DNA of 64,000 nt, from NCBI GenBank assembly GCA_907163375.1, contig CAJQUW010003213.1:26939-90938 (forward strand), given 5' to 3'. Below are positions 40 through 51,100 of this stretch, in pieces (positions within the stretch are counted from its first letter, which is position 1; every line of letters begins with the position of its first letter). Source of the stretch: Prostheceraeus crozeri. Its lineage: Eukaryota; Platyhelminthes; Polycladida; Euryleptidae. A model generated the notes under the pieces. The model saw only the letters and a program-made list of their open reading frames with translations. It was not told where the DNA came from and did not search any database. A program made the translations under genes and the position numbers.

Positions 40-255
40 ATGAAGCAGATGTGTTGCTTGCCATGTAATGAGCCGCCAGAGGTGAATGTCGTTGTCACTT
101 GCACTTGCTGCGCCAGCTCTCACAATGAAACCCCTAAGCAATGTGAACACGATCGCAAAACCGCTAAAGCTAAATGCTGCAGTTGTTGTAAATGTAGAAA
201 GGCAAGAAAACAAAAAGATGAGAAGGAGAAAAAAGAGTCAGTCGTCATCGACTGA
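40..255 (+). CDS. small cysteine-rich basic protein overlapping the integrase start
   Basis: Open frame of 71 residues with 12 cysteines, in clusters such as TCTCC and CCSCCKC, followed by a strongly basic and acidic tail. It overlaps the first part of the integrase frame in another reading frame. If the integrase starts at its internal ATG (218) the overlap is only about 38 bases, which favours a real gene. The cysteine pattern would suit zinc binding, but I recognise no family. It could instead be a chance frame; the window edge prevents a look at its promoter. Confidence 0.35.
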   Translation: MKQMCCLPCNEPPEVNVVVTCTCCASSHNETPKQCEHDRKTAKAKCCSCCKCRKARKQKDEKEKKESVVID

Positions 256-1306
256 ACGCTTGAAGTCAATCTATTATGATGTAAAACATCCGGCAGGATT
301 TGCATCGATCAAGAAATTATCAAAAGCGAGTGGTCTTTCACAATCACAAGTGAAACGATGGTTAAAGGGTCAGGCTACCTACACACTCCACAAACAAGCG
401 AAAAAGAAGTTTCGCACCCGCCATTATATTGTTCATGACATCGATGAACAGTGGCAAGCAGATTTGTGTGATGTCGCCTCCATTTCAAAACATAACTCGG
501 GCAATAATTTTATTTTAACCGTCATTGATATTTTCTCGCGTTATGCGTGGGCTCAACCTTTAAAAACTAAAGAAGGGAAAGGAGTAGCAAAAGCATTCCA
601 AACAATTTTTCGAGAAGGTCGCATTCCAAAAAGAATTCAGAGTGATCAAGGAAAAGAGTTTGAAAATCAGCATGTGAGAAGATTATTTGAGAGGCATGAC
701 ATTGAGTTGTTTAGTGTAAAGAGTGCTTATAAAGCTGCACTCGTTGAACGTTTTAATCGCACATTAAAAAATCGCTTGTGGCGACATTTTACTGCCAACT
801 TGACACAAAATTGGACAAAGGTTCTACAAGATACACTCCATGCCTACAATCACTCTATCCATCGTTCTATTGGACTCAGACCAGTAGATGTAAATGCTGA
901 CAATGTAGATAAAGTGCGCGAATCATTCCAGCGTAAACGCACTCATGTGAAAAGTGATGTGAAAATTGGTGATAAAGTTCGTATCTCAAAAGTGAAGAGT
1001 GTTTTTGCTAAAGGGTACCTTCCGAATTGGACAGAAGAGGTATTTACAGTATCAAGGATTGATCAAAAAGACTCTCCCACCACCTACAAGTTGAAAGATT
1101 ACGATAATGAAGAAATTGAGGGTAGCTTTTACCGCGATGAGATTGAGGTAGTCACTGAAAGTGAAACATATTTGGTAGAGAAAATCATTCGATGTAAAAA
1201 ACGACAAGGTGAAGAATGGTGTCTTGTTAAATGGACTGGCTATCCTTCAAGTATGAACTCTTGGATGCGTCGTGCCGACATCTTTCATCTTAGTGATCGA
1301 CAGTGA
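86..1306 (+). CDS. INT: Polinton integrase (DDE, retroviral type) with C-terminal chromodomain
   Basis: Catalyses insertion of the element's DNA ends into the host chromosome. Numbered from the ATG at 86, a short N-terminal helical region (about 57-105) precedes the catalytic core: first Asp at 126 in WQADL, second Asp at 187 in IQSDQG, Glu at 221 in ALVERFNR, so 33 residues separate the second Asp and the Glu. A chromodomain follows near residues 363-400 (YLVEKII, LVKWTGYP, SW), which in this family probably guides insertion to modified histones. The frame is intact. The true start may be the ATG at 218, because the first 44 residues look unlike the family and lie opposite a cysteine-rich frame. 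Confidence 0.93.
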   Translation: MSLSLALAAPALTMKPLSNVNTIAKPLKLNAAVVVNVERQENKKMRRRKKSQSSSTERLKSIYYDVKHPAGFASIKKLSKASGLSQSQVKRWLKGQATYTLHKQAKKKFRTRHYIVHDIDEQWQADLCDVASISKHNSGNNFILTVIDIFSRYAWAQPLKTKEGKGVAKAFQTIFREGRIPKRIQSDQGKEFENQHVRRLFERHDIELFSVKSAYKAALVERFNRTLKNRLWRHFTANLTQNWTKVLQDTLHAYNHSIHRSIGLRPVDVNADNVDKVRESFQRKRTHVKSDVKIGDKVRISKVKSVFAKGYLPNWTEEVFTVSRIDQKDSPTTYKLKDYDNEEIEGSFYRDEIEVVTESETYLVEKIIRCKKRQGEEWCLVKWTGYPSSMNSWMRRADIFHLSDRQ

Positions 1307-1347: not shown

Positions 1348-1803
1348 ATGAATCCAACTGCCTCATTTTATTCACGACCCTCCTATGTAAGTGGTGGAGG
1401 ACAAATTTACATCGGTGCTCGCCGCCAACGTGGAGGTAGCATACTTGGTGCACTGAAATCTGTTGTAGCACCTCTCATATCCAATGTCGGAAGATCTTTA
1501 AAACGAAATGTTTTAAGTAATGCCGTTGGCTTTGCTGGTGATGTTGCTAGTGATCTTTCCAGAGGTAGAAGTTTTAAGAGCAGTTTGTTGAATCGTGGGA
1601 AGGAACGCGGTTTAAAAACATTGAAGCAGACCTTTGCTGGTGTTACTCAAGGAAAGAAATCGCCTAAACGAATGAATAAAGGAAGAAGGAAACATCGCGG
1701 AGCTGGTAAGGTGCGATCTTCAGTCAAAAGGCATTCACGCAAACGTCGCAGAGGCTCTAATCATTCATCAGGCGCTAAACGACGACGCTGTTATAACTTC
1801 TAA
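1348..1803 (+). CDS. basic virion core / membrane-active type small protein
   Basis: 151 residues. The N-terminal part is glycine-rich with an amphipathic stretch (GGSILGALKSVVAPLI), and the C-terminal third is almost entirely Lys/Arg/Ser/Gly (RKHRGAGK, KRHSRKRRRG). Small basic proteins with a glycine-rich hydrophobic segment occur next to capsid genes in Polintons and adintoviruses, where they are compared with adenovirus pVI or pX; that role is inferred from composition and place. It starts 41 bases after the integrase stop and ends two bases before the next ATG, so it is probably expressed from the same transcript. Confidence 0.6.
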   Translation: MNPTASFYSRPSYVSGGGQIYIGARRQRGGSILGALKSVVAPLISNVGRSLKRNVLSNAVGFAGDVASDLSRGRSFKSSLLNRGKERGLKTLKQTFAGVTQGKKSPKRMNKGRRKHRGAGKVRSSVKRHSRKRRRGSNHSSGAKRRRCYNF

Positions 1804-1805
1804 TC

Positions 1806-3083
1806 ATGGAGTGTAAAATTTCTGGGTTTTGTTTGTTTGATCAACAAGCCATACAGACAGATATTCTTAGTTCAAGTATTGTAGATTATCATCCTCGAAC
1901 AGCTGAGAATGCTGGCCCCATTGAATTTGTTATTCCTGGTGGTAGTGATGACTACATAGATTTGAGTTATGCGATGGTTGATTTGAGGTTTAGACTTCAG
2001 CAAGCAGATGGAACTGCTATTGACGATGCACATAAAGTTGGACTGAACAATTTACCATTGACTACATTACTTCGTGATGTTTCTCTAACGATTGGAGAGC
2101 AGCAGGTGGAAGGTGGTCAAAGCGATTATCCCTATAAATCATATTTCAATCATGTATCACAGTTTCATCCAGCAGCACAAAAAAGTCATATGGAAGCCAT
2201 GGGATGGTACAGAGATGAAGCAGGAAAATTTGATGTTGAAACAAACAGTGGCTTTGTAAAGCGATCTGCTATGATTAAAGATAGTAGAGTATGTCAGCTA
2301 TATGGTCCGCTGAATTTAGACTTCTTTAGACAGTCAAAGTTTTTACTCTGTAATACCAGCATGCGACTCAAGCTGACATTGAATAAGCCTGAATTTGCGC
2401 TGAATGCATTTGCTGAAGTTGACAATTTTAGAATTCATGTGGAAGATATTGCACTTTACATTCGTCGAGTAGTACCGAATCCAAGTGTCATTAGAGGGCA
2501 TGCTGAAGGTCTTAACCGCCAAAATGCCATTTACCCCGTTCAGCATACAACGCTTCTCACCTTTACAATTCCGAAAGATCAAAAGAGTTTCATGAAAGAT
2601 GGCCTCTTTCCATCGGAAGCACCGAAGCTCCTCATGGTGGCAATGGTTGAAAATGATGCATTTAATGGTAATATAAAGAAGAATCCTTTCAATTTTAAAC
2701 ACAATCAGTTAAGTGAAATTGCTTTACGTGTAAATGGTGTGAGTCATCCTGGTCCACCCTACAAACCAGATTTTGCTTCGGATCAATTTATGCGCAGTTA
2801 TATTGATTTTATGGATGTCTTTGGCTTTTACAATACGGATGACACCAACGGACTCACTATGAAAGAGTTTAAGAGTGGATATACTATTTATGCATTTGAT
2901 TTGACTGCTGACAGCGATATTAGTGCACCCTATCGTCAAGCGAACGTGCCTCATAATATTCGTTTGGATTTGACGTTCAAAAGAACACTACCTGAGACGA
3001 TCAATGTATTAATTTATGCAGTCTTCGATTCAAATATTGAAATTACAAAGTATCGTGACGTGATTCTTCAGTATAATCGTTAA
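1806..3083 (+). CDS. Polinton capsid protein, F54H12.2-like (probable major capsid protein)
   Basis: Intact frame of 425 residues. It resembles the animal proteins annotated as F54H12.2-like, a family that travels with Polinton integrase and polymerase genes. Recognisable pieces are DYIDLSYAMVDLRFRL near residue 49, SYFNHVSQFHP, a central LNLDFFRQSKFLL segment and a C-terminal PHNIRLDLTFKRTLPETINVL. Mostly beta-type sequence and this length would fit a double jelly-roll capsid protein; the fold itself is inference. Its stop codon overlaps the protease ATG in the string TAATG (3081-3085), and its start is two bases after the previous stop. Confidence 0.75.
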   Translation: MECKISGFCLFDQQAIQTDILSSSIVDYHPRTAENAGPIEFVIPGGSDDYIDLSYAMVDLRFRLQQADGTAIDDAHKVGLNNLPLTTLLRDVSLTIGEQQVEGGQSDYPYKSYFNHVSQFHPAAQKSHMEAMGWYRDEAGKFDVETNSGFVKRSAMIKDSRVCQLYGPLNLDFFRQSKFLLCNTSMRLKLTLNKPEFALNAFAEVDNFRIHVEDIALYIRRVVPNPSVIRGHAEGLNRQNAIYPVQHTTLLTFTIPKDQKSFMKDGLFPSEAPKLLMVAMVENDAFNGNIKKNPFNFKHNQLSEIALRVNGVSHPGPPYKPDFASDQFMRSYIDFMDVFGFYNTDDTNGLTMKEFKSGYTIYAFDLTADSDISAPYRQANVPHNIRLDLTFKRTLPETINVLIYAVFDSNIEITKYRDVILQYNR

Positions 3084-3545
3084 TGAGTTGGTTGACTGCT
3101 GACGATATTAAAACTAAAGTACAGCGTAATGCAGACGAAGCGACGTTGAAAGCTTTCGATAATGTCTATTCGCTCGATACCTTACCACCTGCAGTAAATC
3201 ACTATCCCATCTTTATTGTGCTAACACACTCATTCGCAGAATTTAGGCGGTGAGCATTGGAAAGCGATCTTTATTGGAGAAGACCGACGTGGTGAACTAT
3301 TTGACTCTCTTGCTCAACCTCCAAATATACCAACACAGCAGTGGTTGAGAAAAAATACGCGTCAATATCAGCGAAATGAACGCATACTACAACATCCACT
3401 TTCATCAACGTGTGGTGCTTTTGTGCTGTACTTCATCTTAAAACGTTTACATGTATCTCGATTTGTATCTATTATTCAAAACTTTTCATGTAATCCATCC
3501 TCTAATGAAAAAATGATTTGTAAGTTCTATCATGATTTGAAATAA
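3083..3545 (+). pseudogene. PRO: adenain-type cysteine protease, frameshifted
   Basis: Would mature virion proteins, as in adenovirus. The first part starts at the ATG at 3083 and stops at TGA 3251-3253 after 56 residues. The continuation is in another frame from about 3240: it contains the catalytic His in GEHW (3252-3260), an acidic segment with FDS, and the catalytic Cys in STCGAF (codon at 3411), and ends at TAA 3543-3545. The frame change falls between about 3215 and 3240. All active-site blocks survive, so the lesion looks recent. No candidate intron explains the shift. The stop TAA is embedded in an AATAAA. Confidence 0.82.
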
Positions 3546-3576
3546 AAACTTCATGTTGGAAAAATTGTTTTTTATT
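3541..3576. terminator. convergent polyadenylation signals shared with stop codons
   Basis: On the + strand AATAAA at 3541-3546 contains the protease stop TAA (3543-3545). On the - strand AATAAA at 3576-3571 contains the TBP-like stop TAA (3574-3572). Two converging transcription units therefore end within 36 bases, with no untranslated 3' sequence before the signals. Confidence 0.6.
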
Positions 3577-4117
3577 TTACAATCCGCTGGGTACGTACAT
3601 ACTCGATGAGATAGTCTAGGATCACATTTGCTTGCACATGAGATTTTAGTCCAGTAATGATCACTTTACTATTATGAAAGATTGCAACATGCACAGGTAA
3701 CCAACAACTAATGAGAGCTGCAGGAAAAAGTTCGGGTTCATAACAGAAATTGTAACTGCTGGTACGAATCTTCAAAAATGATACACTTTCACTCAATTGA
3801 GTAGAGATCACCATATTGTCCACAGTCAGATTCGACATCACACACCTCTCTCTCTTCCATATCCGACGTAGTAGTCTCTGTAGCTCTAAGCGCATTGACT
3901 GCGTCGATGAATGAGAAAGGGCGCCGAGAATCTGTACAGTTCCATTTGGGAAGAGTTGAAGATTCCGTGAATTGTTCATCTTCACCACTAACATTTGAGG
4001 TCGGCCCGGGTAATACTTGCTGTTTGGAAGGTGTTGGTGTAATGTTGTGAGACCGATTTTGGTATAGAGTCTGAAGCGACGGAGAATGTTGACGATGGTG
4101 TAGCGATGGCGCTTCAT
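3572..4117 (-). CDS. TATA-binding-protein (TBP)-like protein, complete two-repeat core
   Basis: 181 residues from the ATG at 4117, the length of the bare TBP core. Two halves resemble the TBP direct repeats. Repeat 1 (about 7-88) has IVNILRRF, KIGLTT, NSKYYPGRP and FPNGTVQILGALS, matching the family pattern of a YNP-type loop, an [IL]F-x-x-G strand and a TGA-S turn. Repeat 2 (about 96-178) has VDNMVIS, the nearly exact family block YEPELFPAALI (126-136) and IFHNSKVIITGLKS. Saddle phenylalanines appear conserved at 131 and 147. A TBP binds TATA boxes and nucleates the transcription complex. It is the last gene of a leftward unit and overlaps the 3' part of the preceding PC4-like frame. Assignment is from motifs only. 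Confidence 0.8.
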   Translation of the reverse strand: MKRHRYTIVNILRRFRLYTKIGLTTLHQHLPNSKYYPGRPQMLVVKMNNSRNLQLFPNGTVQILGALSHSSTQSMRLELQRLLRRIWKRERCVMSNLTVDNMVISTQLSESVSFLKIRTSSYNFCYEPELFPAALISCWLPVHVAIFHNSKVIITGLKSHVQANVILDYLIEYVRTQRIVK

Positions 4118-4439
4118 GATGAAAAAATGAGTAAATTGAGCGATGTACCTTCCTTTTATACTTTTCCCAACTACCTTGATGAAATGTGAAGTTAGTATGA
4201 AGTTGGGAATGATAGAGTTGAATTCGCCGATTGTTGACGCGCAACCAGATGCGATTTCCAATACGTGAATGTCTTTTCATATAGAAGTATTTCAAATCCT
4301 TCATGATATGATGTAGAGATTGAAAATGACGATAAGATACAGCAAACTCTCTTCTCACATTTCCAGTTGAATCTTTGAAATAGACGTTTTGATCATGATC
4401 CGTTTCAATACGTTGTAGGGAATCTAATTTCCAACTCAT
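3789..4439 (-). CDS. PC4-like protein, second copy, with long C-terminal extension
   Basis: 216 residues from the ATG at 4439, 22 bases after the stop of its paralogue. Residues 1-110 match the neighbour block for block (LDSLQ, GNV, LHHIMKDLKYF, IGNRIWLR, WEKYKRKVHRSI). As there, two modules each with a basic strand, a hydrophobic-aromatic turn and a helix recall the transcription coactivator PC4/p15 single-strand-binding domain. The last 106 residues are rich in Ser, Thr, Glu and lie in the region also coding, in another frame, for the TBP-like protein; they may be a genuine overlap or an open shadow. Role in transcription or in binding single-stranded DNA is inference. Confidence 0.6.
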   Translation of the reverse strand: MSWKLDSLQRIETDHDQNVYFKDSTGNVRREFAVSYRHFQSLHHIMKDLKYFYMKRHSRIGNRIWLRVNNRRIQLYHSQLHTNFTFHQGSWEKYKRKVHRSIYSFFHHEAPSLHHRQHSPSLQTLYQNRSHNITPTPSKQQVLPGPTSNVSGEDEQFTESSTLPKWNCTDSRRPFSFIDAVNALRATETTTSDMEEREVCDVESDCGQYGDLYSIE

Positions 4440-4461: not shown

Positions 4462-4818
4462 TTAAGATTTGCATAGTAGGGCGATGAACTCACGACGAAT
4501 AAATGTCATGATGGAGCGATGTACGTATCTTCTATACTTCTCCCAATTATATTTGCGAAATGAAAAACAGTTTGCGGAATGAGAATGACAGAGTTGAATT
4601 TCATTGTTGCGACGTCGAAGCCAAACTTGATCACCTAAGGAGATGAATCTTAATGTTTCAAAATATTCCAAATCCCTCATGATATCATTGCGGTTAACAA
4701 ATTGTCGCCATGTTAATGTAATACCTCTTGCGGTATGACCATGAGAATTTTTGAAATGCACGTTTCCATTACGATCAACTCTGATATATTGTAGAGAGTC
4801 CAAAATCCAAGTCTTCAT
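4462..4818 (-). CDS. PC4-like protein, first copy (two internal modules)
   Basis: 118 residues from the ATG at 4818 (an upstream TTG at 4830 is in frame but the ATG is preferred). Module 1: YIRVDRNGNVHF, then RGITLTWRQF (31-40) and the helix DIMRDLEYF. Module 2: GDQVWLRRRNNEIQL, FSFRKYNWEKY, then the helix VHRSIMTFIRR. PC4 has the same order, a basic curved sheet followed by G-I-S-L-x-x-x-Q-W and a helix, and works as a dimer; two modules in one chain would imitate this. First gene of the leftward unit, facing a divergent promoter. Similarity is weak and needs a profile search. Confidence 0.5.
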   Translation of the reverse strand: MKTWILDSLQYIRVDRNGNVHFKNSHGHTARGITLTWRQFVNRNDIMRDLEYFETLRFISLGDQVWLRRRNNEIQLCHSHSANCFSFRKYNWEKYRRYVHRSIMTFIRREFIALLCKS

Positions 4819-4880
4819 GATGTTATGCAAAGCTGCAGATCATCAATATAAAAATATCGTTTTATCATATTTTTCTTAGC
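4819..4880. promoter_or_regulatory. divergent promoter region with TATA-like string
   Basis: Short gap between the leftward PC4-like unit and the rightward structural unit. TATAAAAATA lies at 4847-4856 in + orientation. The reverse strand reads TTTTTATATT there, so the string could serve either side. It also overlaps the apparent N-terminal coding sequence of the rightward gene, which has lost its ATG. Confidence 0.35.
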
Positions 4881-6257
4881 AATGCGGCCGCAAATAGATT
4901 TGCTAGTAATCGAGCCGCACTCTTTTCTACTCACATTGATCATACACAACAGCTAAATGGAAAGTGGGAAGTGGGTGTCACTCAACTTGTTCATAGCAAC
5001 TGTGTCTATACTTTTGATCATGAGGTGATGACTATTAATATGAGACGCACAGCTGCTTACCAATGTGAAAAGGGCTGCCGAGTATACATTCCACAGTGGC
5101 CAAAGAAAGATCTCTTATCATGTAAAAAGTTTATATATGATTTCCTGAATAAAGCGTGTAAACATATTGTCCAATTTACTCCGCACAATGATGATTATAA
5201 TTATAATTATGTACATCATGTAGTTGAGAAAGATTGGATTGCTGGTCTAAGTCCAAGTTTAATAAATGATTTAGGTTACCTCGCTAGCGCCTTAACAAGC
5301 TATGATAATTATAACGTTAATTACCACATAAGTGGTCATAAACAGTTAATATATCGAGAGGAAGCTTATTATGTAGATCTTATTCCAAGAAATGAGAAGA
5401 CGTTGGTGAAGAAGATTGTGATTAAGCCAAGAAAGACAAACTTGACTCCTGAAACATTAATGAAGAAATTTAATTATCTCCTTCGAGTTGATGGTAAACA
5501 AGTGGCAACATTGACTTATATCAAATCATCTAATCATATTGCAATAAGTAAATTAAATGATGATGATCTAGTATTAGTTTGTTCAAAAGATTTTCATCAG
5601 TTCTTACGACATCGTTCTGCAGCTGTTCATGGAAAATTTTATATGCAACATTTGCCATGTGAAAGGTCAAATCAATTTGATACAGAATGGACCGTATCTT
5701 TATACAGAAAGTGTGTAGAGCCTTTAGGTGGTATCTTACATGAAACAAGAGTGTTGATGCCTCGCATTATTACTTCAGTTAAATTGGTTGTAGATTATTT
5801 AAATGAAGTGATTAATGACCAACATATTTCATTTTCTGAAAAAGAAGGTGCTTTGTCTCTCACTATAAGTGGAAAAGGTATTGAACTAATTATGGATAAA
5901 ACTCTAATGGACATTTTGGGTTTTGATCAAAATATCTTTAAAAGTGGTACTGTAACCAAAGCTAGCGCAGACATGTCGCTATCGCGTCGTATTAACTATT
6001 TTCAGATATATTCCAATATTGGTGAAGATGTACGTGTGGGAGATGTTGAAGCTCCATTGCTAGCAATGATACCATACCAGCCAAAAAGCTGCAGTATTTT
6101 ATCTGAGCATACTTTCAAGAAAGTGCATTATACAAAGCTGAAATCAAACTACATCCCACAAATTGATATTGCAATTTATGACGATGCTGGTGCGTTGATT
6201 CCTTTTCATAAAGATGCTGTAACAAGTATCACACTCCATTTCCGAATGAAGAGTTAA
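4848..6257 (+). CDS. Polinton structural protein, copy 1, start codon lost
   Basis: About 470 codons open from the stop at 4818-4820 to TAA 6255-6257, with no in-frame ATG before the conserved N-terminal block. That block (FLSNAAANRFASN, then NGKWEVGV ending near 4980) matches the start of copy 2 (LPSNASMDKFPKN, EGEWEVGV), so coding must begin near 4848; the ATA codons at 4848 or 4854 could be mutated ATG codons. The C-terminus has VGDVEAPLLAMIP, IDIAIYDDAGALIPF and ends in LHFR, typical of a Polinton-associated protein family with an N-terminal LPSN/WEVGL block and a C-terminal LHFR. It is probably a minor capsid, penton or spike component, but I cannot say which. Confidence 0.65.
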   Translation: MKISFYHIFLSNAAANRFASNRAALFSTHIDHTQQLNGKWEVGVTQLVHSNCVYTFDHEVMTINMRRTAAYQCEKGCRVYIPQWPKKDLLSCKKFIYDFLNKACKHIVQFTPHNDDYNYNYVHHVVEKDWIAGLSPSLINDLGYLASALTSYDNYNVNYHISGHKQLIYREEAYYVDLIPRNEKTLVKKIVIKPRKTNLTPETLMKKFNYLLRVDGKQVATLTYIKSSNHIAISKLNDDDLVLVCSKDFHQFLRHRSAAVHGKFYMQHLPCERSNQFDTEWTVSLYRKCVEPLGGILHETRVLMPRIITSVKLVVDYLNEVINDQHISFSEKEGALSLTISGKGIELIMDKTLMDILGFDQNIFKSGTVTKASADMSLSRRINYFQIYSNIGEDVRVGDVEAPLLAMIPYQPKSCSILSEHTFKKVHYTKLKSNYIPQIDIAIYDDAGALIPFHKDAVTSITLHFRMKS

Positions 6258-6296
6258 TGCAAAAGTATGCTAATATATTTTTCCAATGTCATTAGT

Positions 6297-7772
6297 ATGG
6301 AAAGTGAAAATAGAGATTCGTTTCTAATTTACTTACCCAGTAATGCTTCTATGGATAAATTTCCCAAAAATAAACCATCAGACTATCGAGTAGAATTAAA
6401 TCGTCCACTACATTTAGAAGGTGAATGGGAGGTTGGCGTTTCTAGTATTTGCTATGATAGCAATATTCAGAATGTGAATGATGTGGAAGAAATGATATTG
6501 ACTCCTCGCACCCATGATGGAATAACGATGAATAATGCATTCCAGTTCCCATACAATTTAACGTCAGATGGAAAGTGGAACTATGAATGGATTCAGATAA
6601 AATCAGATTAATATGGTCCATTTGGGAATGAGAAAATTATTAAGGCATTCAACAGTGGTAATACTTCCATCATGAAGAATAAGGATCAGAAAGTTTATGA
6701 GTTTACTATCTATCATTGGAGTGGGAGACAGTTCCTTCGCTTTCATTTTTTTACTAAAGGTCTTACGCTGAGGTTGGATAATGAATTCTATCCACATCTC
6801 GGTTTTGGCCATGGACTACATCTAACGTCAATTGCTACTGCAAATGTTAAAAAAGTTTATTCAAATTGAATCAACAAATTTCATTATAAATTTAAAATAT
6901 TTTATGAAGATGTTGTAGAATGTGAAGAACGCATCATTTTGAAAAAGCGTGGTGTTCAACCTTTATCATTTATTGAGTTAGTAAAACGATGGAATGAGAC
7001 TGTGGGTAAGAAGTATGGAGAGAAAATTATGGCGGACAAAGATAAGTTGGTCATTCAGAAATATAATGACAAACTTACAGTTTATTTCTCTCCAACCTTG
7101 CGTCATTTTGTAAGACATTATACACCTATTATTGGAAGTGGTGTGGTGTATGCTTCTCATGAATATTACACTAAAGCTGATTCAGTTAATGATGAATGGT
7201 GGGTGGACATCTATGGTGATCGCATCAAGAAAATTTACCAGTCTTATCAAGAATCTAAAGTTGCTATCAATATAATGCCGCGTCTATATCATACAGTTGA
7301 AAGCTTCATTCATGTAGTAAATCCTTATATACAACAGAAGTTGAAGCATGTGATGAAAAGTAAATATGATGTAAAGACACACCACATTTCGTTTTCAATT
7401 GAAAATCAACGCGTTGTTCTGAAACTGGGCGATGACATTCAATGTCAATTGAGTAAAAATTTGAAAAAACTCTTTGGTTTTTCAATGCTACAAAATATGT
7501 TTACTGCTGCACATGCGATTGGTATAGAAACACCAATGACACTTGATAAACATGAACAACACCTTTACATTCAAAGTGATTTGATTCTACCTATTTCTGT
7601 TGGCGAGGAAAAAGAACACATTTTATGTGATTTCATTCATGATAAGGATGCTTTATATGGAATAGTCTAGAAGATGTTTCAACCTATTTTCTACCATCCT
7701 GTTATCAAACAAACTATACCCTCTATTTCTATCAAAATTACAAATGGTCTACATGAATGCATCCATGTCTAA
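6297..7772 (+). pseudogene. Polinton structural protein, copy 2, three in-frame stops
   Basis: Tandem paralogue of the preceding gene, starting 39 bases after its stop. From the ATG at 6297 the same frame can be followed to TAA 7770-7772, 492 codons, broken only by TAA 6609-6611, TGA 6867-6869 and TAG 7668-7670. On both sides of each stop the sequence still matches copy 1: the N-terminal LPSNASM and EGEWEVGV, a middle HHISFSIENQ and LKKLFGF block, and a C-terminal IFYHPV block. No frameshift is needed, so point mutations alone inactivated it. A short ATG frame inside the middle part (6672-6869) is part of this pseudogene. Confidence 0.8.
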
Positions 7773-8119: not shown

Positions 8120-11100
8120 TTATGCTAAGACGTCTCCTGAATATGGTAGTGTGAGTTTAATTCTTTTGGGTGGTGGTATGTCTGTATCAGGATGTCCATG
8201 TGGAAGAGATGTGTTATGTCCTATCCAACACCTCTTATCCTCCCATGCTGAAAGCGCCCGTTTCCTAAAAGTATGAGTTTTGATCTCATGCGACTTAGAT
8301 TTTAAGATTGTCATATTGACAAACGTTATATTTTTATTTCTATAGGCTTCCCTGAAATTTTTATGTTTCATGTTAGAGACCAATGATCTTGATATGCCTT
8401 TAGCACGCTTAATACTATCGTCGCTATCCTTTAATTTCATACTGTACATTTTTGGGCGGAGGAGAATCATTTCATCTATTTCCTTCCCTGCTATCTCATC
8501 CTTAAAGCATCCAAGTTTTGCCTTATTTTTGATGGAGTAGAGTGGATGATCAGTAGGATAATTTGATGTATCAAAATATCTTTCTAAAGATTTTCCTACT
8601 TCATTGAAATTTAAATCTTTTTGAGTGGTAATACCTAAGAAGAAACTATCTGTATCACCACCCAACAAACGAACCTCTTTTACGAGAGGACATGGTTTTA
8701 GTATTTTATAAAAGAGTTGGTACATTTCAAGCTTACAGTAATCTAGTACAGCTTGGCCAATATAGATGGGCTTGCACAACTCAACTTCAGATTTTATCAT
8801 TTTAACACCTACAAGGTCCTCATCGATAATGTCTCTATCGATGAATAGAGATGATGAGACCAATTTCTTAAATTTTGTAACATCATTGACTAGTTTATAG
8901 TTTACACGTTTTCTAACATCCTCCATCGTCTTACCAAATAGACTATTGTTCTTATACTTATAAAAATCTTTTTCAAAGTTATTTTGGGCGAGTGCACGTT
9001 TCTGGTTGTTGATATCAATACATGATTTGAGGAAGGCTTTCTGTCTAAATTTAATAATGCGGTGAACTCTTTTTAAAATCATGCCCATTTCTAAATAAAA
9101 TTTTAAGATGCTAAAGTGAACTAGATAGTTTTCCTTATCATATTGGGTGAGTAAAAGTTTGCGGCAAGGCTTATAGTCGGGTTGATCGCATGATTCTAAA
9201 TCTTTATGAAATTGTTTCATAAAGTCGGAAAACATATCTTTGGTCACTTCACCTGATTCGGGTGCGAGTGGAAAATCTACGGTTTTATGTTTAATATTAT
9301 TTGGATAGATTAGATCTATCTCAAAATAATATCCCCAATCACCTTCATCTGGAATTGCTAGCATGTTAGAAGGGTTGGAGAGATGCTGAATTTCACTATC
9401 ATCTAACCAGCTAAACTCAGAGTTAGGTAGTGGTTTGGATAGTGAACTACCATATAAATTATTTTGGTCATCATAATTAAGATGAGTCTGATCATCGCCT
9501 ACTAATTTTGATTTTAACCTATGTTTATTTATAAATGTGAGACCACCGCGAATTCCTCGCTCAAATAAATTATACATCTCTGGATCTTGTAAGAGATGAA
9601 TGGTCTCACCAGTCATTTTAAAAGCAGACTTAAGTGACATGGCTGACAGACTGACAAAGTGGACGGGATCTAACTTATCTTCTTCTAATGCCACTCGTCG
9701 AAACTCCTGAAATACATCAGCCAGCAAAAATACATCTAACTTAAGATAGGCAATCATATATTCGCCAAATGTATGGCAGTCAAATTTTATCCATGCATCT
9801 TGTGCATGATCATAATCTTCGGCCTTACATTCTGCGCCGGTCAAATCATTTTTAAATTTATCTATGGGCGGAAGAGAAGTCTCGCCGAGTTTACTAATCG
9901 CATCAAAATATGCATATGGAAAGACTCCTTTCCGTGTGATGACTTCATCGGTTAGATTTGGATATTGTTTCTTAAGATTTTGTGTTAGTGGAAGAGACTT
10001 TAGATTTTGTACGAGAGAGGCCAGTGATGTAGTCATAAATTGGTAGGAATCTAAAACTTTTATATCAAAATATACCGTCTTATTTTCTTTAGTTTTATCG
10101 ACAGGCACTTTTACTGTCATGGCCATAAACTTCTCTCTCGTTTGTGCTATTACATCAAGCTTCCACTCTTTCATTTGACCTAAACCTCCTTTTATTATCA
10201 TATGGCTGTCGTAGCCCTTGAAATTATGGAAAATGACGGGTAATGTACGCCGTTTCATCCTAAGTGAAAAATTGCATTTTGAACATAGTGCGTTTCTAAA
10301 TTTACCAGTGATGTGATCATGGTCGCGCACTTTCTTAATCTTATCATCATCAAATGTTTTACTACATTTGAGGCAAACGTTGCAACTATCAAATTTTTCT
10401 TGATCATCTGCTGTCACATACAATGATCTGCGATAGAGTTCACCATCATACTTTTGTTGAAATTTTACAGCCTGTTCGAGGAATTGTAGGAATTGGTAAA
10501 TGCAATCCTCACCTTGCCAGACGTGCATTTTATTTTTTCTATTTTGGAAATGGTCATGCCATCCTTCATAGCAGGAAATGGCTGCTGCTCGATGGGTGTT
10601 ATCATCGATATAGCATTCGATGTCAGCATAAATGACACGAAGAGGACTTAGTTCATCGCCATTCTCTCTATATGAAAACTCCTTATCTTTGGGCATGCGC
10701 TCCATTCGTAGTTTACCTCGCTTACACCATTCGTAATGAGCTTCAAATCTATTTTTAATCCTAAAGTTGCGAATGCATCTGTCACAGTAATAAATCTCTG
10801 ATGAGCTAGAATTTCTTAAGTGGTGGTATAAGCGAAAAAGTTTGGGAATACCGCAGTAGTGCCATTCTTCACTATCATCCTGTCTTACTAATAAAAGGTT
10901 GACAACGTGGTCATAACAACTCGAACGCGAGCTGTAGCGGACACCCTTCAATCCCTTTTCCCAAACATGGAGGACTATTTTGATGTTGTTCAATTTTTCA
11001 AATTTTTCTATATCTTTAATTTTCATATCTTCACTATTGCAGTCATCAAACTTTAATTCATTCTCCCACTGTTGATACTTACTGTTACGGTATCGGCTAT

Positions 11101-11937
11101 TCTGTACATCATTATAGTGGAGAATGGAGAGGACGGCATACTTAAATCATTGCGATTCGCAATCTATGGAAATGACTGCTGCTTTATTTCTTAAATTTTT
11201 CGGAAGTTTAAAGGAGCCTCGTCCAGAGTAGTTCTCTAATAAAGTGATTTTAATCATGGCGGTCTCAATACCATCAAAAACGAGACCACTATCAAGCTCG
11301 TTAAATTTATCTATGTTTAATTTTAACCCTTGGATATGAAAATTTATCCAAGACTCGCAGTCTACAACTTCGGTTGCAGGAGAGGAGGGTATGTGAAACT
11401 CCAACCTCTCTACTATTTGACCAGTATAGTGGTCGATTTTTGCATATTTTATTTTGAGAAAGATGAGCGCCTTCATTCTAAAATTGACTAAATTGTTGAA
11501 GAGCGCACCAATCAAAGATGAATTTTGATGAAACCATTCTTCAAAGTCAGTAATGGTTTCTGAGGATTCCATCTGGTAGCTCCTCACTAAATTATTTATC
11601 GACACTTCAGAGAGTCGGATAGAGGAGGTGCTGTTAGTATAACTATCGTCACTGTGTGTATGTCGAAGTCTATGTGAAGATAGTTCAAAATGTGACTCAA
11701 AAGACTGAATGCATAAATCGCAAGAAAAGGAGACATCGTTAACAGAATAATCCCCACCTTCGGAGATTGATGCTGACTTAGGTCTACAAACACCTCGCTT
11801 GATGTGTCGGGCGAGATCACTCTTCCTCGTGAAGATGTTTCCACAGTCAGCACATTCCCGATCGTTGCATTCCCGCGACAATGTTGACATGGAGTCGCTG
11901 TTGTTATCCGACTCGCTCGAGATGGGACTGGTATCAC

Positions 11938-11996
11938 CTGAAAGAGAAATCATTCTTTCATCTCTGTTAATGTCTCAGTGTATTGTTACAACCTAC
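11938..11996 (-). other. short intron in polymerase 5' end (59 nt)
   Basis: Reading leftward: donor GTAGGT at 11996-11991, acceptor TTTCTCTTTCAG ending at 11938. Joining GAAG to GT restores a glycine codon and keeps the polymerase frame. The spliced exon upstream (12057-11997) then encodes a Ser/Glu/Leu-rich segment similar in composition to what follows. Confidence 0.5.
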
Positions 11997-30100: not shown

Positions 30101-33100
30101 CTTCTTGTTGAATTCCGCTGATGAAAGTGACATTGTGTGTTTTCAGTGATGCTTAGTGTGTTGAGTGAACGTGAGTGTGTTTCAGTGATGTTAGTGAGTG
30201 AAGGTTATGTTTTGAGTAAATATCCCTATTCATCAGGAACTGCTATTGCTGTAATTTGCATCCATTCAATATGGTTTTGTCAACCTTCGTCTTCTTTTAC
30301 GACATACGCCTACCAGTAGTACATTTTTTCAATTGTCACTTCATTTTCTGTCATTATCTCTATAATAATCTATTATTAATTCATTTCTAGCTAAATTATT
30401 TATTACTTCAAAAGCGAACCTGTGTATTAAAATGAATTAAAAAAGAAATGATAAACATTCTGATTCCGAAAAAATTACAAAAAATTCCACTTTCAGTCAT
30501 AAACTTTAAATGCTATTGTAATCTCGATTGTATCGTTAATATATCAGTCGCCTCAAGTGTGGAGAATTAATTTGAAATTAATATTACATTCAGTCCATTG
30601 AGTGTACTTTCTTCTGCAAAGTACTTCATCATATTTTACATTCCTATTGTGAAAATACTATACGATCTTTGAAGAGTGGGATTCTCATTCTGTGGAGCCA
30701 TGAGGGTGATCAGATATTTGCACAAACATGTGTTAGAACATTGGCCGGTAGCGCTACATGTGTTTAAAACAGGGTTGGAAAAAATCACGATTTTTTTAAA
30801 AAATCAAAAAAATCGGATTTTTCTTATTTAAATCAGATTTTTTTGATTTTTTAATGATTACCTTACTTTATTCTATCAAGGTGGAAATAAAATGAATAAA
30901 GTATGCAATGGAGTTTTCACAAGCAATTATTTACATCATTTAATCCATAACATGTCTGTAATTTTCAATCATTACTGAATTCACATTGATTCTAATTACC
31001 GGTATCTACCACCGACTGATTTAATCTTTAAAATACTCAGTTCAAAGTTGATCTGTGAATATTTTCATACTTATGGGCACCTTTGCGAACACATGTATTA
31101 CCTTGTATAGGCTATATTAACTGATTGTAAATTTAATTATACTGTTATTTTTTATAAAACCATTTATTTAGATCCATCTAGGTATGTATCGATTAACTTA
31201 CTTCACTTAAAAATAGTAATGCTTTATTCAATTGTAAAATTACTTTCATTTGAAAGCTTTATTACCGACTCAACGTTCAATTTTAGTTAACTTACTTTTT
31301 ATCAATTCTGTGAAATGCCGTACAAAAGGTTAAAAGTTCATTTAAATACAATCATATGAATGTACAACTGTAGGTTTATTGCAAATATACACTGTGCCAT
31401 AATACTCTGGGGTAGCGTGTACAGTACATATAGATAAATTAGATAACTTATCTGTTATCCATGTAGTTAAGATGAATTACCTTTATCCAAATGACCTTTT
31501 TATCCATCTATTAAGTTTGTTCTAACACCCAAAATTGTAATTATATGGAATGCAAAAGATTTACGAAACAACAAGAATCTTTACTCAAAGTCTAAGCTAT
31601 TTAAGAAGATCAAAGGTATCGTTTATTCCTTTAGTTCAAAGCTTTGAACAAAAATACGAGTTTCTTGGCCTTCTCATTGCCGAGTCGATTTCGTAGTTTC
31701 GACTGGACAAGTCCATAGGAACTGAACATTCTCTCGACGCTAGCTGAGCTTGCTACAGCGGAGAACAAACAACGCAAAAATATAGTAATGGTCTCATCTA
31801 GGGAATTTTTGTGGAACATCCACCAATCACATGCATTCATCGATTTTACCACGTTTTCTTCGAATGTGCACGGCATAAAAGGCGATGATTTTGATTGGAA
31901 TTTCATTAAGAAAGGAATGATCTTTGGACACTTTTCATTTGCAAATGACATTGCTTCATTTCTTTCTTTTTCAGTCAAGGACTTCCCTGTATATCTGGGA
32001 TGCAAGAAGTTAGATAATAGATGTACAGGTGTGACTGCCTGTTCGTATCGTTTCTGGAATATTTTCATGATTTCACGATTCTTCAGGGTCTGGAACTTTT
32101 CACCCAGCTCTTTCCATATTTCAACAGCCTCAGCTAACTTAGTATTGTCTTGAATATGATCCAGAGCCTCAGCGACTGGCGCCAGCCTGTCCTTCAGCTC
32201 TTCCACTGAACGCTGCAAGACCATGTTGTTGACTTTGTTGCGAATAACATTGTCAATTTTATCTCGGTGATCTTCGCAGATCTTGATAAGCTTGGACCAG
32301 TTGTCAATGTATGATTTCAAGCTGTCACACATACTGTTCCATCTGACGTCTTGCGGCATGATCAACTTTGTCCCATTCTTTTGACGATATTTTGCAGCTG
32401 CGAAGTGGTTGTTCCTAAAGAATTTTATGACTTGCACTACGTGTTCATGCACATCAGAAATTGAAAGATCTTGTGCAAGCAAATTTAAGTAATGTGCTGA
32501 GCAACCGTAAGTCAATATATCGTTTCGGCATATTTCTTCCACTTTCTTCCTCATCAGAGTTACATTGGCCGCATTATCTGTAACTACGCTGCCTACCTTG
32601 CAGCTGTATTCGGATTCGAGTCTCCGAATCATTGATCCCGAGATCTCAGCCAGGTACTCTGCCGTGTGAGATTGGTCGGCTGTGTCTACTGAATCAAACA
32701 GATAAACAAGTCCATCCTCTGTAGTAACTGTAGAACTGACAATAGGCTCATTATGAACATTTGACCATCCATCAAATCCTAAACATACAACTTTATCCTT
32801 CAAGTTATCCCCACATTTCAGCCACTCTTCATCGTGAATTTTATCCAACAGTTTGCCAGAAATGTCTTTCCTACTTGGAGGATGGTAACCAGGTCGTAAC
32901 ATTTCTATCATTTTGATAAAGTGAGGATTCTCAACAGAACGAAAGGATGAATTAGTAGAAAAAACGAATCTTGCAATTTGCAGGGATGCAAGACTTCCGG
33001 ATTTATCCGGATTTCCGGATTTTTGACCAAGATTTCATTGGGTCTCGGGATTCGTTGAAAAATGCCATAAAAATTAAGGGGGTAACCCCTAGGCCTATAC

Positions 33101-48100: not shown

Positions 48101-51100
48101 TAATGAAAGTCGAGTTAAATCACAGAAGAAACAGCGAACGATTAGGACTGCTATAGCGTGAATTATAGGCCTACTAACTGCCTAGTCGTGAACGGAATAA
48201 ATGATGATGTTGCTAATCTTGCTATGATGACAAAATTCATTTTTTCTATGTGAATTATAAATAGTGAATGCGCATCAGTCGTGCAAATTATGACAAAATT
48301 ACAGTATGTAGGCGCATGAATGGTAGGATAGGATAAAAAATTAGGTGATTTGCATGTATGTGGACGCACATAATAAGTACGGTACGGACCTTTTTTGGCA
48401 GAAAAAAAGAATGATATTTTTAATTTGAAAATATGTATTCGTTCAACTCAGGAAGACTTCTTGGAGTTCAGATTCAAAAACAATATCTGCTCATTCTGCT
48501 GTGCATGTTCAGCTGTGAGTCCCATTCGCCTTTCATGGTAAATGTTGCCGAAGACAGAGAAGACTCGTTCGGAGGCAGCACTCGTGGCCTGAATAGCCAG
48601 GTACTTTCTCGCAAGCAACGAAAGCTTTCTGAACTTCGCTTGATTGATTCTCCACCATGAAAGTGGATCCTTTGACTGTGAGGATAATCCTTGTGCCTGA
48701 AAAGAGAAAAGATGAAAGAGTATTAATCAAAGCCTGTAAGAATTGAATTTTAGGGTGATGAACAAGTGTCACAACATGCATACTAAGAATCATATATACG
48801 GGAATAACATAGGCTTATAACTGTCATGCTATCATGTCTAGCCTATATGATGTAATGTTTGAATGGATGAAAACTCCAAACCCTGTGATTCACGTCATAA
48901 AGATTGTGCACATTATAGACATCGTCGATATACCACAATATCCAATATATAGTAGGTCTGTAACATTGTATCGAACAACAAACAATGCTATCAAAATGCA
49001 ACTTCATGTGGGCAATTAACATTATCATGAACAATATCAGTTATGCATAATGTTACAACAGAGTGTAATGTTGACAAAAATATTATAATTAAAAGTAAAA
49101 CATGTATTTTCACTGAGATAGTAAAGTACAATTTTTTAACATCGTAGACGTCTTGATATTATTTTTGCAACTTCAGTCAAACAGCCTATTGCAGAGTTCA
49201 TATTCCCATACATAGATTTATGAAATTCATGTCAGCAAATTTCCAATGCATTCCTGTTGCAAATCATGCATTTTTTGAACTTACTTGTATATAGCTATCC
49301 AGCTCATCCTCTTCTTTTGATACTTTCTCTTCAATCACATCGTCATCAAGCAGCGTAAGTAACATGCATCGTTTTGAACTTGGTGCTCCGGACGTGTCGT
49401 CGCGTTCGACTTCTGTTACTTCTTCATCCACATTCACTGATATCTTTTTCATTTCGTCCAATATTGTCGCGTGAACATTCAATCTTGTTTCGCGAGACAA
49501 GAATGTCAGCTTCTTGAACCTGGGATCCAAGAAAGATCCCATGACATGAACACTCATGGAACCAAGGAACTCTTGGTCCTCCACGGAAAATTGTTCCGCA
49601 AGATTAATCAGCAGACGTGATTGAAACTCCTTGGCCATAGCAGTTTCGCAAGGTTTCAGCTGCAGTCGTTTCAGGAGACAAAACATGATCGGATAAACTT
49701 CTGAGACACTAACAGATGTTTCTGTTTGCCATTCATCTGTTGTCATCTTTAGGTCTTCAAGCAGAACAATTATCTCCTTGATTGCGATGATTTCATGCGA
49801 ACCAAATGACAGCGAACATTTTTCCACATTGTTGAGTACATGTGTTGATTTTACAAGGAAGTCAAATGCATCAAAGAGCTTTGAAAAGCTTTGAAGCATG
49901 ACAACAGTGCTATTCCACCTCGTTTTATTGATCTTTTGAAGCTCGCACATATCGTGATCCCTGCATAACTGCCCTGTAGGTCCGAAATTCCGAAGTCAGC
50001 GTTATGGATCTGTGGACTGTCGAAATTGCAGTATGGATTTTGTTGATCAATTTCTTTACTTCGTCTACCTCTTCAAAAGAATCGTTGATGGAGAGCTGAA
50101 GAAGGTGAGCGAGGCATCCGATATGGTATTTTGTTGATGAGGACAAATCCAACGCTTTCTTCATATTGCTCGCATTGCCATGGGTCGCACAGAAGGCGTT
50201 TACTTTGAAAGGACTCAAAGTTTCGTCTATGGTTTCAGCTAAATTGTCACCGATGTGTTGCTGCGTTAACAAAGGACTACCAAAATTAGCATTTCGAAGC
50301 TGCCAAGATCGATCGATCCAATGAGCTGTGAAGGTTATGAATGCTGACATTTGTCTGTTAGTCCAGCAATCTGTGGTGATGCTCACTAAAGTGGAAGAAG
50401 TGAATCCATCCGTTTCTACCTTCTGTTTGAGTTGAGAAAGATCTTCATCGTACGTTGTGTTAATATGTCTCATCAGAGTTGTATGCGAGGGAGGTTGGTA
50501 GTTCGGCTCGAGATAGAGAAGCAGTTCCTTCATTGAGGTATCCTCACAGAATGTCAACGGTTGCAGATCAGTAGTTACACACCTGAAATAGGATAGAAAT
50601 TTAACTATACAAAATTTTTACTCTCATCTTCATTTTGAAAATGTATCTTAATTCTTGATAAATCCATATTTTGTCTACCAGTAAGAATATTATTCGTACT
50701 TGACATATTACGTATTTACATGTATGTACCGACTAAGTAAGAGATTATGTACCGATGCATTGTACTACGGCCTCGTACTTCTAACTTCTTCACAATTTAT
50801 CAATCAAGTAGGCTAAAACAAGCAGTATTGTAACACAAGATTTCAGAAATTTGAGCATATGTTCCCCGCCCTATCAGGGCGACCACGTCCCTGGCGTTCA
50901 TCTCAATATGATTGAGAAAGGTCAGTCATAGTTGCTAAAATAAAATAGTCATTGTGTAGGGGAATTCAAACAGATTTCACCGCTAAATAACGTCATAATC
51001 TATTTCATAAGATAGGAGGGCTAGCTAATCATTACTTGCTGTTCCTCTTTTGGTATTTTGTAGGCCTGTGGGCTGCGTAATACCTGTCCATGCTCTCCAC

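Follow-up and report, generated by a model that had tools for sequence, protein, structure and literature searches.

Why does a Polinton carry a TBP gene, and how might the element use it? Polintons are regarded as a hotbed in the evolution of eukaryotic DNA viruses, and to our knowledge little is known about how their genes are controlled. We analysed a 64-kb stretch of DNA (hereafter the window) from an apparently animal genome, whose left edge truncates the element in question. A sequence-only reading had placed a TBP-like protein at 3572..4117 and attributed it to a Polinton. Both statements held: the open reading frame (ORF) is intact, and its 181-residue product, the size of a bare TBP core, matches the PF00352 profile (E 2.5e-19; 69.3 bits against a cut-off of 22.9), has the two-repeat saddle fold of TBP and lies among neighbours that include a chromodomain integrase and a double jelly-roll capsid protein. 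The profile match, together with the 61 relatives described below, rules out a chance ORF. The features of the element are listed here by position.

86..1306, plus strand: integrase (rve core, E 5e-11) with a C-terminal chromodomain (E 6.2e-7)
1348..1803, plus strand: small basic protein, no profile match
1806..3083, plus strand: double jelly-roll major capsid protein
3083..3545, plus strand: remnants of a probable adenain-like cysteine protease, not intact and split between frames (Peptidase_C48, E 0.0083, below the cut-off)
3571..3576, minus strand: AATAAA, a possible polyadenylation signal overlapping the TBP stop codon
3572..4117, minus strand: intact TBP-like protein, 181 amino acids, the central finding
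3789..4439, minus strand: ORF B, 216 amino acids, N-terminal part paralogous to ORF A, no significant Pfam match
4154..4160, minus strand: TATAAAA, a weak candidate TATA box within ORF B, 43 bases ahead of the start codon of the TBP gene
4462..4830, minus strand: ORF A, 122 amino acids, upstream of the TBP gene on the same strand
4971-6257, 6267-6611 and 6939-7670, plus strand: three ORFs, no Pfam family under E 0.1
8120..11953, minus strand: polymerase-like gene with a C2H2 finger, an endonuclease VII motif and one in-frame stop

The retrovirus-type integrase (rve plus chromodomain) and the double jelly-roll major capsid protein support assigning the element to the Polintons. It shares these two genes and, probably, the protease (as a remnant) and the polymerase-like gene with Polintons/Mavericks and adintoviruses, and differs in having a TBP gene, which is not reported for them in the literature searched. 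That search, by title and start of abstract, outside subscription journals and the adintovirus and nematode-Polinton papers, returned no published TBP of a Polinton, Maverick or adintovirus. In their accessible portions, the co-mentioning papers discuss TBPs from giant viruses or algal viruses, or use the terms in unrelated contexts, and the terms TBP and TATA are absent from PMC11071308 and PMC10120064.

The polymerase-like gene matched endonuclease VII only, with no polymerase match in Pfam, PHROGs or PDB sequence searches, and had no relative in the phage set or viral contigs; from its motifs, it is a candidate protein-primed family B DNA polymerase (pPolB). The small basic protein resembles the adenovirus-type core protein pX. 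The protease remnants had no solved-structure match, and we presume their His/Cys motifs to be those of the enzyme. By eye, the ORFs within 4971-7670 are perhaps fibre- or penton-like, and perhaps represent duplicated, partly broken fibre or penton genes; all three have a common WEVGV-type motif and alike segments, again by eye. No packaging ATPase was found among the Pfam-scanned element ORFs, and the element probably runs off the window. Across positions 1-24000, a search for long terminal inverted repeats gave just one weak 32-nt pair (75%), away from the element ends, and the left end probably lies outside the window. The capsid protein had no relative in the viral contigs or genome contigs. 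Two proteins resemble it closely: P0067, which comes from JGI, Logan and ENA, with 99% identity, and P0068, with 86%; the latter was deposited under a 'Pseudomonadota bacterium' MAG and is probably eukaryotic or viral DNA inside the MAG bin. Elsewhere in the window, minus-strand ORFs at 31631-32911 and 49264-50557 may encode hAT-type transposases, judging by their appearance.

A protein search returned 61 relatives of the window TBP at E<=0.01 among 105 candidates, 36-81% identical to it and all matching PF00352. They come from a protein set without genomic context; family counts below refer to these 61 plus the window TBP. Mean family identity is 21.1% to human TBP and 25.7% to M. jannaschii TBP. 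A tree of all members and five reference TBPs (67 rows) has a branch with 100/100 support that divides the 62 from the references. We conclude that the window encodes a real TBP, intact and belonging to an old family of its own, and that its carrier here is an endogenous virus of Polinton type. Fourteen relatives (P0049-P0062) group together as a subclade with 100/100 support; its branch is long (1.5 changes per column), and it may represent a second type of such TBPs. The window TBP had no relative in the phage set, viral contigs or genome contigs searched and no PHROGs match; Rfam gave no match either. A scan with cellular TBPs yielded two viral contigs with host-like TBPs, which served as references only. 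These genes, on IMG/VR contigs L001 (2791-3588) and L002 (2887-3603), encode proteins ~50% identical to human TBP and adjoin similar long helicase-like ORFs.

Two other genes of this element copy, the polymerase-like gene and the protease, are broken, and the copy is therefore decaying; a fragment of host TBP or a recent host gene copy might thus have landed beside it. The chance of this is very small, given an intact ORF with 21% identity to human TBP and a place among 62 family members separated from the references with full support. On divergence and tree, we reject a recent capture of host TBP. The sequence-only suggestion of a captured host gene that diverged was not established by the family identities, and the tree neither dates nor places the origin of the family because it holds only five references.

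The two lobes of the saddle have diverged unequally. Residues are numbered as in human TBP (339 residues), whose core letters we verified against the PDB; the choice of minor-groove residues reflects what we take to be the DNA-facing positions. Identity to human TBP is 35.6% in the C-lobe versus 19.1% in the N-lobe, with the C-lobe higher in 62/62 members; against M. jannaschii TBP the values are 35.0% and 24.6% (60/62). C-lobe residues N257, V259 and F305 are kept in all 62, T313 and F288 in 61 and L287 in 55, while the DNA-facing L303 (Leu in 25, Val in 22) and V311 (Ile in 44, Met in 12) vary conservatively. The TFIIB-contact glutamates are near-invariant: E284 in 61/62, with one Asp, and E286 in 62/62. 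In the N-lobe, F197 is replaced by Pro in 58 of 59 members (3 gaps), L212 by Gln in 58/62, V220 by Gln (Q62) in 62/62 and T222 by Leu in 56/62, and V169 is retained in only 1/55. F214 (62/62) and N167 (50/50) are kept. The window TBP has three of the four kinking Phe, F197 being Pro; departures from the four DNA-kinking Phe also exist among cellular TBP relatives.

The regulator surface of the N-lobe is changed as well. At A184, N189, E191 and R205, which we take to be TFIIA contacts, the human residue occurs in 0, 10, 0 and 2 of the 62 members, respectively, and E191 is Lys in 46. The helix 2 basic patch appears mostly lost at the aligned columns (Lys or Arg at R231 in 1/62; R235 in 12/62; R239 in 10/62), where the helix register is uncertain at ~20% identity. 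In the window TBP itself, N189 and R239 are retained and Arg stands in for K243, so part of its regulator patch persists. Compared with cellular TBPs, eukaryotic and archaeal (PF00352), the family thus shares the two-lobe saddle, bare-core size, three of four kinking Phe and the TFIIB-contact glutamates, and differs in its ~21% identity to human TBP, at F197, L212, V220 and T222, and across most of the N-lobe regulator surface.

In cellular TBP, it is established that the C-lobe contacts the 5' half-site of the box and is itself bound by TFIIB. The residue pattern suggests, at roughly even odds (about 0.5), that the window TBP is a half-rebuilt promoter factor that would use host TFIIB and RNA polymerase II (Pol II) on element promoters, outside normal TBP control. 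The C-lobe would still hold a TATA-like box by its canonical 5' half-site and dock host TFIIB, which in turn would bring in host Pol II. The N-lobe would read an altered 3' half-site and lack the usual grip for the host regulators TFIIA, TAF1 and Mot1/BTAF1. With such a hybrid initiation complex, the element would have host Pol II transcribe from promoters of its own. The basis for this reading is the kept C-lobe residues, the rewritten N-lobe face, the near-invariant E284/E286, the higher C-lobe identity in every member and the lack of a TFIIB-like family among the element ORFs scanned with Pfam; the uncertain helix register, a TFIIB that could lie beyond the left edge, the retained N189 and R239, Arg at K243, variation at L303 and V311 and the lack of a standout promoter motif count against it. 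The fold, the family, the lobe asymmetry and the residue pattern are shown here; DNA specificity, TFIIB binding and regulator escape, and which genes would be served and when, we infer. The residue pattern is in keeping with the earlier proposal, in which the element would use the protein to initiate at its own promoters or to divert host polymerase.

The same residues bear on two other roles. Kept C-lobe docking residues with changed N-lobe contacts could also look like a dominant-negative TBP, a decoy that would tie up host TFIIB or TATA sites and depress host transcription without starting that of the element. However, the N-lobe changes, with Q62 present in every member, are fixed family-wide, a pattern more suggestive of selection for a particular DNA contact than of loss, and we consider a decoy distinctly unlikely. 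A role outside transcription, bending DNA during replication, packaging or integration, would need no host factors and would suit the three kept kinking Phe. Strict conservation of E284 and E286, whose known role is TFIIB contact as far as described in PMC7221094, would be unexpected for such a protein, making this role improbable.

According to the sections available from PMC7221094, C.L3.2 and C.L3.4 (human mutants E284R and E286R) contact TFIIB, C.L3.2 is ~40% conserved in viral TBPs, and almost all TBP-bearing viruses, poxviruses excepted, also have a TFIIB-like protein. This last report favours an orthogonal system of the kind proposed for giant-virus TBPs, in which the window TBP would work with an adaptor of the element rather than host TFIIB. 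That adaptor could be a TFIIB outside the window, since the element is cut at the left edge, or ORFs A and B. No TFIIB-like family was found among the element ORFs scanned with Pfam, and ORFs A and B matched neither TFIIB nor any other known family. The variable TFIIB-contact glutamates of a giant-virus-type orthogonal TBP are not seen here (E284 61/62, E286 62/62, versus ~40% at C.L3.2; PMC7221094, in part). We therefore hold an orthogonal system to be unlikely.

ORFs A and B may be TBP partners. They are 44% identical over 112 residues, ORF A adjoins the TBP gene, and the 3' part of ORF B overlaps it in a different frame. A PC4-like coactivator identity, attractive by eye, was rejected (hhalign against human PC4: probability 0.4%, E 0.15), and PC4 was absent from their five weak solved-structure matches. 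ORF A has three database relatives. We compared coincident contig sizes among TBP, ORF A and capsid relatives (the best 120 of 262 capsid matches) with jittered sizes. P0065, an ORF A relative, and P0002, the closest TBP relative, lie on contigs of equal size, 1771 (one coincidence; null mean 0.017, p 0.017), which also speaks for an adaptor role. The other two ORF A relatives, P0064 and P0066, lie on contigs of 12876 and 11119, the sizes of those of the two closest capsid relatives, P0067 and P0068 respectively (two coincidences among the best 120 of 262; null mean 0.035, p 0.0004). The single direct TBP-capsid coincidence in that set (7106) is not significant (null 0.51, p 0.40), and the TBP-capsid link beyond the window therefore rests on ORF A. 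Linkage of TBP to element genes outside the window is thus supported but indirect.

Among nine upstream regions of the element, one with a guessed start, TATAAAA occurs in two (p 0.03). The commonest upstream 7-mer, ATGCAAA (4/9), was rejected as a common promoter motif, as 308 of 2000 random sets reach four, and no motif stands out among the nine regions. The AATAAA over the TBP stop codon accords with a compact, Pol II-transcribed gene.

Other viruses encode TBP-like factors. The window TBP matches the fold of giant and large DNA virus TBPs, including that of Heterosigma akashiwo virus (E 1.5e-10). The eukaryotic N-lobe signature, which binds TFIIA, BTAF1/Mot1, TAF1, Brf1 and Brf2, is described as not kept in viral TBPs (PMC7221094, in the sections available), a loss the family shares; the same paper places the binding of TFIIA, Mot1, TAF1 and Brf at the N-lobe basic patch. 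The family differs from giant-virus TBPs in its near-invariant TFIIB glutamates, and its carrier here is small and integrase-bearing, with no TFIIB in the visible part. The herpesvirus late factors EBV BcRF1 and CMV UL87 are likewise virus-encoded and TBP-like, and are proposed to send host Pol II to viral promoters; they have ~10% TBP identity and work at TATT boxes as part of a viral multiprotein complex (PMC4893493, in part), whereas the window TBP is compact and readily recognised. Mirusviruses have a TBP in 59% of genomes (PMC10132985, in part), and TBP is sporadic in putative mirusvirus-derived elements of a green alga (PMC10675990, in part). Mirusviruses, too, can be integrated, but they have HK97-fold capsids and much larger genomes.

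A private TBP offers a direct handle on Polinton gene control, and an altered one may give the element promoters of its own while host transcription machinery is still used. Extending the half-rebuilt factor to animal Polinton-type endogenous viruses at large is tentative, somewhat short of an even chance: these would run hybrid initiation, with a C-lobe held for host TFIIB and Pol II and an N-lobe rewritten by fixed Pro, Gln and Leu in its minor-groove face, reading a new half-site and ignoring TFIIA, TAF1 and Mot1, so that element promoters would form a separate class in the host nucleus. The family is unlike both the TBP-TFIIB pairs proposed to act orthogonally in giant viruses and the pre-initiation complex of herpesviruses. 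It is a natural experiment in TBP design: as half of the saddle is preserved and half rewritten, each lobe can be tested for whether it determines promoter sequence, the use of TFIIB or escape from TFIIA, TAF1 and Mot1.
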